This document shows positions 11,265 to 22,623 of a stretch of DNA of 33,810 nucleotides, piece by piece; positions within the stretch are counted from its first letter, which is position 1, and each line of letters begins with the position of its first letter. Where the stretch lies: NCBI GenBank assembly GCA_937889595.1, contig CALAOR010000009.1:1-33810 (forward strand), given 5' to 3'. The translations under genes were made by a program, and so were the position numbers. This DNA is from an uncultured bacterium (GTDB taxonomy: Bacteria > Oederibacteriota > PGYV01 > Palsa-1178). The notes beneath the pieces are model-generated. The model saw only the letters and a program-made list of their open reading frames with translations. It ran no database searches and had not been told where the DNA came from.

Positions 11265-12428
11265 TTATCCCAGGTCTTTCCTGAATTTGTTCGCCGAAAT
11301 CAGCAGGAATATCATGCCGAATAAGAACAGGAACCACGCCTCGCCCCAAAGCGCGGATATGCCCGTGTCGGCCTTCAAAAATATGGTCCGCAGCGCCGTT
11401 ATAAAATACCTGGCGGGGAATACATAGGTAATCATCCTTATTATCCACGGCATGGAATCTATAGGGAACATAAACCCCGACAATAATATGGACGGGAGCA
11501 GCGTTGAAAAGGCCGTGGCTATGACAGCCATCTGCTGGGTTGAAGCAAGGCTTGATATGAAAAGGCCCAGGCCCAGGGCGCAGAAAAGGAACAACAATGA
11601 AAATATAACAAGCGTAAAATAATTGCCCTGAAACGGCACCTTGAACCACAATATGCCCACAATCACGATTTCAGCCACATCTATCAGGCATATCAGTATA
11701 TAAGGCGTTAATTTTCCTATCATAAGTTCAAGCGGTTTGATCGGCGTGGATATAAGCTGCTCAAAGGTCCCTTTTTCCTTTTCACCCACTATGGTAAGCG
11801 AAGTGAGAAGCGCGGCTATGAGCATCATGATTATGGCGATAAGGCCGGGAATAATAAAATTTGAGCTTTTGAGTTCCTGATTGTACCAGACCCTGGGCAC
11901 GGTTTCCACCATGGGTATGGTCTTCGGGTTAAACCCCCTGCTCTTTACCTCTTCAAGCAGTATGCCCCGGGACACGCTCGCGATGATCATATTCGCGTAA
12001 CCCAGGGCCGTATTGGTGGTAGTCGGGTCGGACCCGTCGCCTATAACCTGTATCTTTGCCGTCTGGTTCTTTTTAACTGCTTTTTCCAGGCCCAGGGGCA
12101 GGGTCACTATGGCCTTTATCCTGTTTATCCTTATGGCTTCGACGCTTTTCGCCATATTATTTTCTGCCGGTTTATACATCTCAAAATACCCGGACGATGT
12201 GAATTTCGCCGCAATGAGCCTGCTTAACGCGGACCTGTCATAATCCACCACGGAAAAATCCAGCTTATTTATGTCAAACGTCACTGCATAGGAATACAGC
12301 ACCAGGAGCAGCACGGGTGCGACAAGCACTATGGCCAGCGACCTTGCATCCCTTACTATATGCAGGAACTCTTTTTTAAACACCGGTATTATCCTTTTAA
12401 AGTTTAAAGTGCCCCTGTCATTTGCCAC
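11265..12428 (-). CDS. ABC-2 type permease (YbhS-like)
   Basis: A protein of about 387 residues with the same layout as its downstream paralogue: a first membrane segment (AIVLVAPVLLLVLYSYAV), a large outer loop, the GEKEKGTFEQLISTPIKPLE coupling-helix region, and five further membrane segments. I chose GTG at 12428, because GGGAG lies about eight bases upstream within the end of the ATPase gene; the frame stays open to a TTG at 12449. The start overlaps the upstream ATPase stop by 11 bases, which suggests coupled synthesis of ATPase and permease. With its paralogue it would form the membrane channel of an exporter working with the HlyD adaptor. The substrate (drug, cation or lipid-like compound) is unknown. 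Confidence 0.92.
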   Translation of the reverse strand: MANDRGTLNFKRIIPVFKKEFLHIVRDARSLAIVLVAPVLLLVLYSYAVTFDINKLDFSVVDYDRSALSRLIAAKFTSSGYFEMYKPAENNMAKSVEAIRINRIKAIVTLPLGLEKAVKKNQTAKIQVIGDGSDPTTTNTALGYANMIIASVSRGILLEEVKSRGFNPKTIPMVETVPRVWYNQELKSSNFIIPGLIAIIMMLIAALLTSLTIVGEKEKGTFEQLISTPIKPLELMIGKLTPYILICLIDVAEIVIVGILWFKVPFQGNYFTLVIFSLLFLFCALGLGLFISSLASTQQMAVIATAFSTLLPSILLSGFMFPIDSMPWIIRMITYVFPARYFITALRTIFLKADTGISALWGEAWFLFLFGMIFLLISANKFRKDLG

Positions 12429-13362
12429 TTGACTCGCTCCCTTTGACAAGATTTACAAAAACATCCTCCATAGTGGGTTCCACGTTCTCCGGTTTGGAGA
12501 ATTTTATCCCGGCTCCGTTTAGCACTTCCCTTATGACCGCGTCCGCCTGTTCCATGCCGGACAGCGGTATAAGGTGTATGAGCGCGCCATGTATTGAAAT
12601 TTCTCCAAGTTCATCCTTTTTCGCGCTGAGTAATTTATAAGCCTCGACCGGCGCTTCTGATTCTATTTCCATTATCGGCTTTTTAAATACCGCGGATTTT
12701 ATGTCATGTATGGTACCTTCCTTTATTATACGCCCGTTATTCATGAGCGCTATCCTGTGGCAGTGTTCCACCTCGTCCATATAATGTGTTGTCACAAATA
12801 CCGTGATGCCTGATTTTGAAAGCATGTCTATTATCTCCCAGAACCTGCGACGCAGAAGCGGGTCCACGCCCGCAGTCGGTTCGTCTAAGAACACTATCTC
12901 GGGTTTGTGCGCGATGGCGCAGGCCAGTGCCACCCTTTGTTTTAACCCGCCGGGCATGTCTCCGACTATATTCTTTTCCAAACCGTCAAGTTCGGTGTAT
13001 TTTAAGACTTCGGGCATGCGTTGCTTTATAAATTCATCGTCTTTCCCGTAAAGGCCCGCGTAAAAATCGATATTTTCCGCCACTGTCAGGCTGGGATAAA
13101 GAGAAAATTTCTGCGACATATAGCCGAGCCGCTTTTTTACCTCTTCAGGGTCGTTCTTTATGGAGAACCCGGCAACAATCGCATCCCCGGAAGTGGGCTC
13201 CAGCAGCCCGCAAAGCATGCGTATAGTGGTGGTTTTTCCAGCGCCGTTTGCGCCTAAAAACCCGTATATCTCGCCCTTTTCAACCTCAAAAGATATGGAA
13301 TCCACGGCGACAAAATCGCCGAAGGTTTTCTGTAGGTTCTTTGCGCTTACGCTTTGTTGCAT
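12418..13362 (-). CDS. ABC transporter ATP-binding protein (C-terminal half of YbhF equivalent)
   Basis: A protein of about 314 residues with Walker A GANGAGKT (37-44), a signature degenerate at its start (MPGGLKQR rather than LSGGQ), Walker B plus Glu (IVFLDEPTAGVDP) and a switch His (TTHYMDEVEHC). The C-terminal DUF4162-like extension is typical of drug-export ATPases. I chose ATG 13362, behind AAGGAG. The frame is also open further upstream to 13479, but that part is translated heptamer repeat (ENREQRT units), not a plausible domain. In E. coli YbhF two such domains are fused; here they are separate genes with a repeat hairpin between them. It overlaps the next permease gene. Confidence 0.94.
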   Translation of the reverse strand: MQQSVSAKNLQKTFGDFVAVDSISFEVEKGEIYGFLGANGAGKTTTIRMLCGLLEPTSGDAIVAGFSIKNDPEEVKKRLGYMSQKFSLYPSLTVAENIDFYAGLYGKDDEFIKQRMPEVLKYTELDGLEKNIVGDMPGGLKQRVALACAIAHKPEIVFLDEPTAGVDPLLRRRFWEIIDMLSKSGITVFVTTHYMDEVEHCHRIALMNNGRIIKEGTIHDIKSAVFKKPIMEIESEAPVEAYKLLSAKKDELGEISIHGALIHLIPLSGMEQADAVIREVLNGAGIKFSKPENVEPTMEDVFVNLVKGSESSGK

Positions 13363-13372
13363 GGAGCTCCTT

Positions 13373-13486
13373 GTTCTCTGTTCTCTGTTCTCTGTTCTCT
13401 GTTCTCTGTTCTCTGTTCTCTGTTCTCTGTTCGAAACCAAACAAAGAACAAAGAACACAGAACAAAGAACACAGAACATAGAACAA
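13373..13486. repeat. Heptamer-repeat hairpin element 1
   Basis: Eight perfect tandem copies of GTTCTCT (13373-13428), plus GTTC, face five divergent copies of the complementary heptamer GAACANA (13446-13480) plus GAAC, across a short spacer. On the minus-strand mRNA this gives a long imperfect hairpin directly between the stop of ATPase 1 (13490) and the ribosome-binding site of ATPase 2. Because the unit is seven bases long and has no stop in any phase, all six frames stay open and read ENREQRT or SVLCSLF. In this copy the arms do not match at the variable base of each unit, so the stem has regular mismatches. Confidence 0.9.
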
Positions 13487-13489
13487 TCT

Positions 13490-14392
13490 TTACGCCTTTA
13501 TCCTCTCCACAAAAACATCCTCCACGCTCGCCGCTATGCGCCTCACCGTAACCTCGCCGCATATCCTGCCGCAAAAATCGTCAGCTGCGGCATTGTCGGT
13601 AAGTATCACATGGAACCGCTCTCCCAGCTGCTGCCAGTCCTTAATATATTTGCTGTTTTTTATGGCTTCCAGTACCAAATGTTCTTTGCCTTCGCCTGTC
13701 ACTTCAACAACCACCCCGTTTAAGTTCCTTCTCAGATTTTTTGGGGTGTCGGTAAGCACTATCTGGCCCCTGAACATGAGGCCTATTCGCGAGCACTGCT
13801 CTGCCTCGTCCATGTACGGGGTGCTCACCACTATTGTGACGCCTTCCGAATGTATCCCCTGCAGTATTTCCCAAAATTCCCTCCGGGATACCGGATCCAC
13901 TCCCGTGGTAGGCTCGTCCAAAAAGAGTATCTCCGGCCTGTGTATAAGCGTGCATATCAGCGCAAGTTTCTGCTTCATTCCGCCTGAAAGTTTACCCGCC
14001 AGCCTGTCTTTAAAAGGTTCCAACCTTGTCATTTTTAAAAGCGGCGCAAGCCTTTCATAGAGCGTTTTCCTGTCAATGCCGTAAACATCCGCGAAAAATG
14101 CTATGTTTTCATTTATAGTAAGGTCGGTGTAAAGGCTGAACCTCTGGCACATGTACCCTATTTTCTCCTTAACCGCCTCGGCAGCATCGGGAAGTTTTTT
14201 ATCAAGCACCATTACCTGTCCGCTTCCCGGAAGCATTATGCCGGCCAGTATGCGCAGCGTGGTTGTTTTTCCGGCGCCGTCCGGCCCGATCAGCCCGAAT
14301 ATTTCCCCGCGTTCCACGGAAAAATTCAGGCCGTTAACCGCTGTAACATCCTTGAATTTTTTTGTCAGGCCTTTTACGTCGATTACGTTCAT
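13490..14392 (-). CDS. ABC transporter ATP-binding protein (N-terminal half of YbhF equivalent)
   Basis: A 300-residue ATPase with Walker A GPDGAGKT (36-43), canonical signature LSGGMKQK, Walker B/Glu ILFLDEPTTGVDP and the family's C-terminal extension. The normal switch His position reads STPYMDEAEQC, with Pro where the sister ATPase has His. That could mean the pair has one consensus and one degenerate nucleotide site, as in many heterodimeric ABC transporters. ATG 14392 follows AAAGGA. The open frame to 14536 is only heptamer repeat. Stop TAA (13492-13490) abuts repeat element 1. It powers export together with the second ATPase and the two permeases. Confidence 0.94.
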   Translation of the reverse strand: MNVIDVKGLTKKFKDVTAVNGLNFSVERGEIFGLIGPDGAGKTTTLRILAGIMLPGSGQVMVLDKKLPDAAEAVKEKIGYMCQRFSLYTDLTINENIAFFADVYGIDRKTLYERLAPLLKMTRLEPFKDRLAGKLSGGMKQKLALICTLIHRPEILFLDEPTTGVDPVSRREFWEILQGIHSEGVTIVVSTPYMDEAEQCSRIGLMFRGQIVLTDTPKNLRRNLNGVVVEVTGEGKEHLVLEAIKNSKYIKDWQQLGERFHVILTDNAAADDFCGRICGEVTVRRIAASVEDVFVERIKA

Positions 14393-14406
14393 GGGGGTCC
14401 TTTGTT

Positions 14407-14543
14407 GTTCTTTGTTCTCTGTTCTTTGTTCTTTGTTCTCTGTTCTTTGTTCTCTGTTCTTTGTTCTCTGTTCTTTGTTCTCTGTTCTCTGTTCTGTGTT
14501 CTGGCCTTTGAACAAAGAACAGAGAACAGAGAACAAAGAACAA
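14407..14543. repeat. Heptamer-repeat hairpin element 2
   Basis: Fourteen tandem GTTCTNN units (14407-14504; mostly TTT or TCT endings), a five-base spacer, then almost five inverted units (14510-14543). The stretches 14470-14501 and 14510-14541 are inverted repeats matching at 31 of 32 positions, including the variable unit-specific bases, so a very stable hairpin is expected in DNA or RNA. It fills the gap between the HlyD gene stop and the ribosome-binding site of ATPase 1. Like element 1 it is open in all six frames. Confidence 0.92.
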
Positions 14544-14546
14544 TCT

Positions 14547-15341
14547 TTACATCTTTATCTCCACATCCGCCGGTATTCCCGGTTTTAAGATATGCTCCGG
14601 ATTTGGGACCGTTACCTGGATTTCAAATACTTCTTTTATCCTTTCATCTTTTGTCTGCACGTTCTTGGGTGTGAACTCAGCCTGGCTTGATATGAATGTT
14701 ACTTTCCCCGTGAACTCTTTCTTATCCAACGCGTCTATTTTGACTTTTACATCGTCCCCGTATTTTATCATTTCCATTTCCTTTAACGGCACATATATGG
14801 TTACTTTTGCGGTTCCCAGGTCACCCAGGGTAAATAACGGCGAACTGGGCGAAACAAGTTCTCCTACTTCCACATATTTTTTAAGTATCACGCCGTCCCA
14901 GGGGGCCGTAACAGATGCTTCCTGTGTCATTACCTCTGCCTGTTTAAGCTGTGACGCGGCGCTGATGAAATTGGCGCGTGACAGGTCAAACTGCTGCTGG
15001 GATATCGAGCTTGCCTCGAACATGTTCTTTGACCTGTTATATATATCCTGGGAATTTTTAAACATGGCCGCAGCCGCGTCCTTCTGCGCCGCAACTATGG
15101 AGTCATCGAGCGCGGCTAAAAGCTGTCCTTTTATAACTGATGCGCCTTCATCAACCGAAAGCGAAGTAACCCTGCTTGATATACGGGACGCGACATCCAC
15201 TTCCCTCACTTCAACCGTTCCGGAGGCTAAAATACCTTTTTCCTTATTAAACATCTTCGGCACCAGCCAGATACCCAGGACCGTAAGGATCACCATTGCC
15301 GCTATTATCGGCCTTGCTTTTTTTACTTTTTCCATATCCAT
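14547..15341 (-). CDS. HlyD/RND-type membrane fusion (adaptor) protein, YbhG-like
   Basis: A 264-residue periplasmic adaptor. A single N-terminal membrane anchor covers about residues 9-30 (PIIAAMVILTVLGIWLVPKM). A lipoyl/barrel-sandwich half follows (VEVREVDVASRISSRVTSLS), then an alpha-helical coiled coil of about 60 residues (80-140), then the second half (VTAPWDGVILKKYVEVGELV) and a beta-barrel. It bridges an inner-membrane ABC exporter to the outer membrane or periplasm, which is the main argument for a diderm host. Gene order (TetR, adaptor, ATPases, permeases) equals E. coli cecR-ybhGFSR. ATG 15341 has AGGAGG six bases upstream. Its stop is followed immediately by repeat element 2. Confidence 0.92.
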   Translation of the reverse strand: MDMEKVKKARPIIAAMVILTVLGIWLVPKMFNKEKGILASGTVEVREVDVASRISSRVTSLSVDEGASVIKGQLLAALDDSIVAAQKDAAAAMFKNSQDIYNRSKNMFEASSISQQQFDLSRANFISAASQLKQAEVMTQEASVTAPWDGVILKKYVEVGELVSPSSPLFTLGDLGTAKVTIYVPLKEMEMIKYGDDVKVKIDALDKKEFTGKVTFISSQAEFTPKNVQTKDERIKEVFEIQVTVPNPEHILKPGIPADVEIKM

Positions 15342-21697: not shown

Positions 21698-21795
21698 AAT
21701 TTAAAATTCAAAATTGAAAATTAAGGTGTGCTTTGCACCTTTATTATAATAGCACATTACAAAATACCTTAATTTTCAATTTTGAATTTTAAATT
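21698..21795. repeat. 98-bp element with perfect 30-bp inverted repeats at the lipA end
   Basis: 21698-21727 and 21766-21795 are exact reverse complements (arm beginning AATTTAAAATTC and ending AATTAAGGT). The 38-base centre contains a small GGTG...CACC hairpin. The right arm is inside lipA: it encodes the last residues NLKFKIEN and the stop codon. The left arm ends a few bases from the ribosome-binding site of the next gene. It looks like a mobile or regulatory palindromic unit; in RNA it would form a long A/U-rich stem. Confidence 0.92.
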
Positions 21796-22623
21796 ATAAG
21801 TCTCCGCCATATACGAACTTCTAACCCACACTCCGCTTTCAACATGCTTAAAACCCGCGTCATATGCTTTCTGCTTATACCAATCAAATTTTTCCGGTTT
21901 TATATATTCTACCACACTTGCGTGTTCTTTATCCGGTTGTAAATACTGGCCTATGCTTATATAATCGCACCCTGTTGCCACCAGATCGTCAAACACTTCC
22001 AGCACTTCATCTTCACTTTCTCCGAACCCCAAAAGCACGGCTGATTTTGTGGTCATACGCGGATTAATTTCCTTTGCAATTGCAAGCACATGCAGGCTTC
22101 TTTTATAATCCGCGCCCTTCCTGACATGGTAAAACGACGGCACTGTCTCAACATTGTGCGCAAAAACTTCAGGGTTTGCATCAATTACTTTCTTTATTGA
22201 GGATTCCAAAGCCTGAAAATCCGGCACTAAGACCTCTACTTTAGTCTCCATGCTCCTGCCTCTTATCTCATTTATTACCTCAGCGAAAGCGCCGGCCCCG
22301 CCGTCTTCCATATCATCCCTTGTAACGGATGTAATTACTGCGTACTTAAGTTTTAACCTGACCACAGCCTCAGCTACTTTTTCGGGTTCACTTTCATCAT
22401 AAATTTCCGGTTTCCCTTTTTTCACATTGCAGAAGCTGCAGTTTCTCGTACATGTATCGCCGAGTATCAGGAACGTTGCGGTTCCTCTGGCAAAACATTC
22501 CGATATGTTGGGGCAGCGCGCCTGGTGGCACACTGTGTGAAGATTCAGGCCGGATAACAGGCTTTCCGTGCCCTGCATGGCCTTAAAATCTATTTTTTTG
22601 ACCGCGTATCCGGGTTTTTTCAT
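21769..22623 (-). CDS. lipA: Lipoyl synthase
   Basis: A 284-residue radical SAM enzyme that inserts two sulfurs into protein-bound octanoyl groups. The auxiliary cluster motif CHQARCPNISEC (C32, C37, C43), the radical-SAM motif CTRNCSFC (C58, C62, C65) and the C-terminal RSSY serine ligand are all present. Substrates would be the octanoyl-GcvH made by the neighbouring transferase. The start ATG overlaps the stop of that gene as ATGA. After RSSYMAETY the protein continues NLKFKIEN, which comes from the inverted-repeat element and is not conserved family sequence. Confidence 0.97.
   Translation of the reverse strand: MKKPGYAVKKIDFKAMQGTESLLSGLNLHTVCHQARCPNISECFARGTATFLILGDTCTRNCSFCNVKKGKPEIYDESEPEKVAEAVVRLKLKYAVITSVTRDDMEDGGAGAFAEVINEIRGRSMETKVEVLVPDFQALESSIKKVIDANPEVFAHNVETVPSFYHVRKGADYKRSLHVLAIAKEINPRMTTKSAVLLGFGESEDEVLEVFDDLVATGCDYISIGQYLQPDKEHASVVEYIKPEKFDWYKQKAYDAGFKHVESGVWVRSSYMAETYNLKFKIEN

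Follow-up and report, generated by a model that had tools for sequence, protein, structure and literature searches.

Inverted GTTCTNT arrays in the operon gaps of an FCPU426 soil bacterium form a dispersed, insertion-like family

The window analysed here, a stretch of 33,810 nucleotides, is contig C9 of G000, the 3.42 Mb genome of a soil bacterium from candidate division FCPU426. It carries an efflux/transporter operon in which two elements built of GTTCTNT arrays occupy the gaps on either side of the gene for ABC ATPase 1, and a member of a second heptamer-hairpin family lies elsewhere in the window. The features are as follows.

12418..13362, minus strand: ABC ATPase 2, assigned from Pfam ABC_tran, the gene model and homologues; the true start is the ATG at 13362, outside element 1.
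13371-13486: element 1, a GTTCTNT array plus an inverted AGAACAN arm, between ATPase 1 and ATPase 2.
13371..13432, plus strand: GTTCTCT array of element 1, eight units; on the mRNA, which follows the minus strand, this is the 3' AGAACAG arm abutting the ribosome-binding site of ATPase 2.
13433..13439, no strand assigned: loop of element 1.
13440..13486, minus strand: inverted arm of element 1, six GTTCTNT units, starting 3 nt past the ATPase 1 stop codon.
13490..14392, minus strand: ABC ATPase 1, Pfam ABC_tran; the true start is the ATG at 14392.
14405-14543: element 2, a GTTCTNT array plus an inverted AGAACAN arm, between the HlyD-type adaptor gene and ATPase 1.
14405..14502, plus strand: GTTCTNT array of element 2, 14 units; the 3' arm on the mRNA, exceeding its partner arm and stopping before the ribosome-binding site of ATPase 1.
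14503..14509, no strand assigned: loop of element 2.
14510..14543, minus strand: inverted arm of element 2, four units, starting 3 nt past the stop codon of the HlyD-type adaptor gene.
14547..15341, minus strand: HlyD-type membrane-fusion adaptor, Pfam HlyD_D23, the first gene upstream of element 2.
21698..21799, no strand assigned: second heptamer-hairpin family, AATTCAA/AATTTTA type with a longer loop, between two minus-strand genes.

Both elements extend from 3 nt past the upstream stop codon to the ribosome-binding site of the next gene. Read along the mRNA, the adaptor stop codon and 3 nt are followed in element 2 by four GTTCTNT units, after which a short loop and 14 AGAACAN units lead up to the ribosome-binding site of ATPase 1; the layout of element 1 is the same, with six and then eight units leading from ATPase 1 to ATPase 2. 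RNA folding of the two window elements gives -68.1 and -52.2 kcal/mol, with z-scores of -11.4 and -9.7 relative to shuffled sequence, far outside chance expectation. The description in a first-pass annotation of tandem arrays with inverted arms in the two gaps around ATPase 1 is confirmed, and its suggestion of an intercistronic RNA stem is supported. In the predicted fold of element 2, most of the longer 3' arm is single-stranded immediately 5' of the ribosome-binding site. A search of Rfam with the elements gave no match above the gathering score.

Mechanically called reading frames run into both arrays (12418-13479 and 13490-14536), and gene callers are liable to place starts inside such arrays. 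The first-pass annotation was right to treat the upstream extensions of both ATPase genes as false, as homologues begin at the ATGs at 13362 and 14392 and the ATPase 1 homologue of the same-genus species G044, 93% identical, aligns from residue 1. The open frames could instead be taken at face value, with the repeats translated as ENREQRT-type N-termini of the ATPases. This is hardly credible in view of the downstream starts of the homologues, the unrelated, stop-containing sequence in the corresponding G044 gaps and the presence of the elements in gaps of many unrelated genes. The accompanying statement that the repeats are open in all six frames applies to the minus strand; on the plus strand, element 1 is interrupted by a TAG and element 2 by a TGA.

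The two elements belong to a family. A three-unit pattern matches 209 times across the whole of G000 and not once in the reversed control. The DNA sampled from G000 (1.39 Mb) yielded 27 GTTCTNT elements, and that from G044 (0.37 Mb) yielded 19. Among the other 43 genomes of the phylum that were searched with a four-unit GTTCTNN pattern, one matched, with a single lone array of another unit. Period 7 predominates more generally: when hairpin arrays of any unit length from 5 to 14 were sought in about 0.6 Mb, 47 of 49 had this period, and simulated sequence with matching dinucleotide composition contained no heptamer hairpins. Further heptamer-hairpin families in G000 are of the AATTACT, CCGAACT and AATTCAA types; copies of the last on contigs C75 and C79 have a common internal ATGGTCTATTGCTGCGGGC-like middle, and this AATTCAA/AATTTTA family looks like a true MITE. 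Separately, a perfect tandem array of a 16-letter unit, TCGAATGCTCGACTGT, is present in 7.7 copies at 2225-2347 of locus L014 (contig C52 of G000).

The GTTCT core of the unit is nearly invariant, with three deviating interior units beside 299 regular ones in a count that covers interior units only and in which units were found by their core. T occupies position 7 in 291 of the 299. Position 6 varies freely (C 121, G 77, T 51, A 50). The 50 units with A give TAG on one strand, which makes the earlier claim that copy-number change never creates a stop false for the family. Neighbouring units share the free base in 135 of 296 cases, against 81.5 +/- 7.4 expected from pooled units and 120.4 +/- 6.4 within arms. 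This likeness is a mark of local unit duplication and, together with differences in unit number between species, supports the annotation's suggestion of copy-number change by slippage within arms. Its proposal that the inverted arm was copied from the left arm fails: arm-to-arm identity at the variable base is 0.428, against 0.457 +/- 0.046 for permuted arms (24 elements). In element 2 itself the arms match at 33 of 34 positions in the best register, yet at 32 of 34 in four other registers, so that the match cannot identify a copied arm. Loops of different elements are of unrelated sequence and widely differing length, whereas the outer 5' end tends toward GATTGTTCT. A helix of at least 20 bp, single mismatches allowed, is predicted for 24 of 30 two-armed elements, the folded elements comprising 42-231 nt of tandem heptamers; some other elements have one arm. 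Two contigs of G000 break inside GTTCTNT arrays (C60 at its end, C73 at its start), and assembly is therefore limited by the arrays, in which unit numbers may be collapsed.

Several of these properties would be expected of plain microsatellites, that is, slippage hot spots with neither family history nor function: the excess of identical adjacent units, the differing unit numbers in gaps shared between species and the occurrence of lone arrays in unrelated viral contigs. A microsatellite origin leaves unaccounted for the presence of one unit at dozens of unrelated gaps, the inverted build, the preferred type of gap and the recurring outer end; it is already disfavoured by this inverted, dispersed, gap-specific pattern and we regard it as improbable. 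The viral arrays are found in 15 contigs of IMG/VR (L142-L156), mostly without inverted arms, and a phage origin was rejected on the ground that these matches are mostly lone and armless. Copying by a reverse transcriptase was likewise set aside, with no RVT_1 match in seven genomes.

Placement in G000 is strongly non-random, the opposite of the random scatter that the first-pass annotation had named as speaking against it. Genes were called for this purpose by a simple codon-usage script, and several of the tests here and below were designed after the data had been seen. Coding sequence makes up 88% of the DNA yet holds none of the elements. Three things speak against frame-neutrality as a selected property: this absence from coding DNA, the lack of a stop in any of the six frames for 50.4% of all heptamers, and the presence of stops in sister repeat families of the same genome. 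The idea of a selfish repeat tolerated for being frame-neutral survives as one of a selfish repeat tolerated in gaps, without that reason. Taking the element out would leave 12 of the 23 element-bearing codirectional gaps with at most 40 bp; gaps this short account for 3.6% of all gap bases (p = 5e-12) and for 33% of the gaps by number (p = 0.046). An apparent preference for codirectional gene pairs was rejected, as 91% of all neighbouring G000 pairs are codirectional, and absence from divergent gaps is not strict, since three of 19 G044 elements lie there. Seventeen of 24 G000 elements start 0-8 nt past a stop codon; the other seven are not near one. Beyond the transporter operon, the same element is found between leuC and leuD, between the fumarase subunit genes, at argG/argF, hypE/hypD and metX, and at other sites. 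Occurrence in so many unrelated operons means that it is not special to the transporter, and leaves an ATPase-specific role in setting dosage unsupported.

Comparison between species indicates how the gaps came to be filled. The other genome of G000's genus is the palsa_1178 MAG; G044 is the same-genus species compared with G000, and both G000 and G044 are metagenome assemblies. Across 115 orthologous codirectional gene pairs, the G044 gap exceeds 60 bp in 13 of 13 cases where the detector finds an element in the G000 gap, compared with 10 of 62 control gaps of at most 40 bp (p = 9e-9); the G044 contigs were picked partly for holding these genes, a choice that does not affect gap contents. The G044 gaps orthologous to element gaps usually hold another inverted element, namely AAGCCAA arrays, GTTTTAA arrays, a nine-letter hairpin or a GTCATTGCGAGG-type repeat. 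The counterpart of element 1's gap, between the two ATPases at 2404-2497 of the G044 locus L081, contains a hairpin of the nine-letter unit GACTCANNT. GTTCTNT itself is clearly common to both species at the serA/aminotransferase gap, where unit numbers differ. It is also visibly shared at rpsG/fusA, and a remnant is left between adaptor and ATPase 1. Most elements are at different sites in the two species, and one G044 element sits where the G000 genes overlap by 4 nt. Among more distant relatives, the outgroups G042, G039 and G034 mostly have short gaps without a stem at the corresponding operon sites, and in G043 and G032 these sites carry hairpins built of other heptamers. Neither the element flanks nor a G044 insertion absent from G000 showed a target-site duplication, with flanks too diverged to make this firm. 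GTTCTNT is a dispersed, insertion-like family, its dispersal and its placement being matters of direct observation. Also present in G044 operon gaps (L050, L065, L104, L118), and once adjoining a GTTTTAA array, is an inverted element of the form GTCATTGCGAGGAGC...GCGACGAAGCAATCTC, for which three copies (L050, L065, L104) had no Rfam match and a search of the open-access literature by sequence returned no relevant paper.

These observations bear on whether the stems are kept for what they do to the gene upstream. A REP-like regulatory hairpin within 15 nt of a stop codon could stall terminating ribosomes or protect mRNA ends, and would be retained for tuning that gene. The position of 17 of the 24 elements directly past stop codons suits this view, as does the finding in E. 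coli that translation is lowered by REPs with fewer than 16 nt between them and the stop codon (PMC12306157), and selection for a stem would predict that gaps stay filled by different hairpin families across relatives. Against it, the host genes have no function in common, most elements are not common to the two same-genus species and the outgroups manage without any stem. A short gap with an untouchable ribosome-binding site moreover leaves little room, so that closeness to the stop codon is expected in any case. Taken together, we consider such a regulatory role unlikely.

A somewhat smaller probability attaches to the arrays being binding sites for a global RNA- or DNA-binding regulator, with the purine-rich AGAACAN arm before the ribosome-binding site as the active part. 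Four-fold synonymous sites are only 45% identical between G000 and G044 and hence nearly saturated, and over the same distance the GTTCT-T core has not changed while N is free. The unchanged core must therefore reflect constraint or continued spread and not recent common descent of each copy. There is also a strand bias. On the sense strand, AGAAC makes up the longer arm of 16 among 21 unequal G000 elements and of 12 among 15 in G044, giving 28 of 36 together (counts that are not fully independent, at least one gap being common to both species), and every one of the 11 one-armed arrays is AGAAC when read in sense. The two arms and the lineage-specific sites suit a mobile family better, relatives carry wholly different units in corresponding gaps, and no candidate binder was identified.

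Arrays of this kind have an unexpected association with genes for S23, a widespread protein family named for the intervening sequences of 23S rRNA. An S23 gene of G000, on contig C75, is bracketed by GTTCTNT hairpins; its 130-aa product matches PF05635 (E = 2.6e-34) and is a relative of XCC0516 (PDB 2gsc), for which a pentamer of four-helix bundles has been reported. S23 genes are present in eight of ten FCPU426 genomes searched. Of 29 S23 domains examined in FCPU426, 17 have a short-unit array no more than 450 bp away; the figure for small genes is 101 of 592 (17%; p = 1.3e-6). The flanks pair with each other at 7 of the 29 domains against 3 of 155 controls (p = 1e-4). A search by S23 similarity brought up 17 plasmid records of Cyanobacteria and Riemerella, and in 15 of them arrays lie within 300 bp of the S23 gene; 24 of 27 such arrays have period 7, the unit differs at most sites, and the flanks are mutually inverted (pairing score at least 14) in 11 of 17 cases compared with 0 of 90 control genes (p = 4e-11). 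Insertion sites include those between cas6 and cas4 and between cas10 and cmr3. A further ten records, including Gemmatimonadota and Alphaproteobacteria, are the sole replication among the tests: arrays with periods of 7-9 are near eight of the ten S23 genes, and inverted flanks occur in five of ten, set against seven control genes only. Altogether, FCPU426 and plasmids from four further phyla have S23 genes flanked by inverted arrays of 7-9-nt units.

The AAGCCAA family of G044 likewise flanks an S23 gene, and gene-less arrays of the S23-adjacent unit occur elsewhere in the same genome for the GTTCTNT, AAGCCAA, GGTCCAN and GTTACAG types, a pattern like that of transposon/MITE pairs. Counting against the link, only one of the many GTTCTNT elements adjoins S23, and G042 possesses S23 genes while its sampled DNA is free of such hairpins; the genes and the repeats may do no more than occupy one niche. 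The S23 protein matches no defence family in PADLOC, and relatives numbered none in the phage collection and one in IMG/VR. A tRNA or tmRNA gene is near 10 of the 29 FCPU426 S23 loci, often with a short-unit hairpin between (L224, L225, L228, L230, L231, L232, L236, L242, L247, L250).

Of known systems, the closest are the intervening sequences (IVS) of 23S rRNA with an S23 ORF, as in Coxiella and Leptospira; in Coxiella, the IVS has a 28-bp stem cut by RNase III and the S23 ORF in its loop (PMC4990558). Common to both are a long stem formed by terminal inverted repeats inside a transcript and an S23 gene in some copies, flanked in FCPU426 and cyanobacterial plasmids by inverted short-unit arrays. 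They differ in that GTTCTNT stems consist of tandem heptamers, lie between protein genes and not in the 23S rRNA gene, mostly lack a gene (the window elements hold no S23 ORF) and would be cut by RNase III only on our reading. REP/BIME sequences are also dispersed intergenic palindromes, often just past operon stop codons, but are single palindromes of 20-40 bp and not tandem heptamers. A RAYT/REP origin was rejected: Y1_Tnp genes are present but unlinked to arrays, none of which lies within 1.5 kb of the four Y1_Tnp loci examined, and G042 has five Y1_Tnp matches and no such hairpins in its sampled DNA.

MITEs are likewise short, non-coding, intergenic and multicopy with terminal inverted repeats; one example is Chunjie, which sits in an operon of Geobacter uraniireducens and leaves it undisturbed, as cited in PMC10969869. 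The sister families AAGCCAA and AATTCAA come close to this type, unlike GTTCTNT, whose copies have no common internal sequence and vary at their ends in unit number, and in whose much-diverged flanks no target-site duplication was seen. No transposase with GTTCTNT-like ends was found in the genome, where an S23 gene with the same ends was. Cyanobacterial STRRs are tandem heptamers that occupy intergenic sites in many unrelated operons and often immediately precede a start codon; GTTCTNT is not a known STRR unit, and its arms are inverted. The same description fits the TAACTGA repeats of Beggiatoaceae, Cyanobacteria and Bacteroidetes, proposed as binding sites of a global regulator (PMC4679880), which are direct (one inverted among 170), unlike the inverted, stem-forming GTTCTNT arrays, in which every unit has one free position. 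Geobacter metallireducens has tandem heptanucleotide sites with another unit (MTYCTGA, class 3); they are multicopy, intergenic, mostly paired and drawn as inverted pairs, and are read in PMC2700814 as IHF/HU-type sites, with no sign of a link to S23 seen there.

On balance, the two GTTCTNT hairpins of the window are copies of a dispersed non-coding element, inverted GTTCTNT arrays around a short unrelated loop, set into short operon gaps directly past the stop codon. Each copy on the mRNA would fold into a stem of about 20-45 bp, and a double-strand-specific nuclease, probably RNase III, would cut this stem as it does in the 23S rRNA IVS. Cutting would separate the neighbouring cistrons and leave both readable, so that the insertion would be tolerated. 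The cutting of operon stems and the mode by which the family spreads or moves are both things that we infer. We hold with moderate confidence to this account as a whole, in which the GTTCTNT hairpins are gene-less, IVS-like elements with an RNA stem cut between cistrons. The link to IVS rests on association, and common descent with S23 elements would be the best reading of it.

A wider proposal is more tentative, possible though short of probable. S23 genes and inverted arrays of 7-9-nt units may together make up a single class of mobile elements, spanning phyla, that reside in transcripts (in rRNA, beside tRNA and tmRNA genes and in operon gaps) and survive by RNase III cutting, with the GTTCTNT elements as gene-less derivatives and each S23 lineage recognising its own unit. 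In the open-access literature searched, intergenic tandem heptamers without a known role and the S23 protein have been described apart; the present account ties the two to each other. If it is right, intervening elements acting at the RNA level are spread through the operons of several phyla, where they quietly part one cistron from the next, and the S23 family can be tested as the protein that recognises or spreads them. Such a cross-phylum class, if real, would give this uncharacterised four-helix-bundle family a function.
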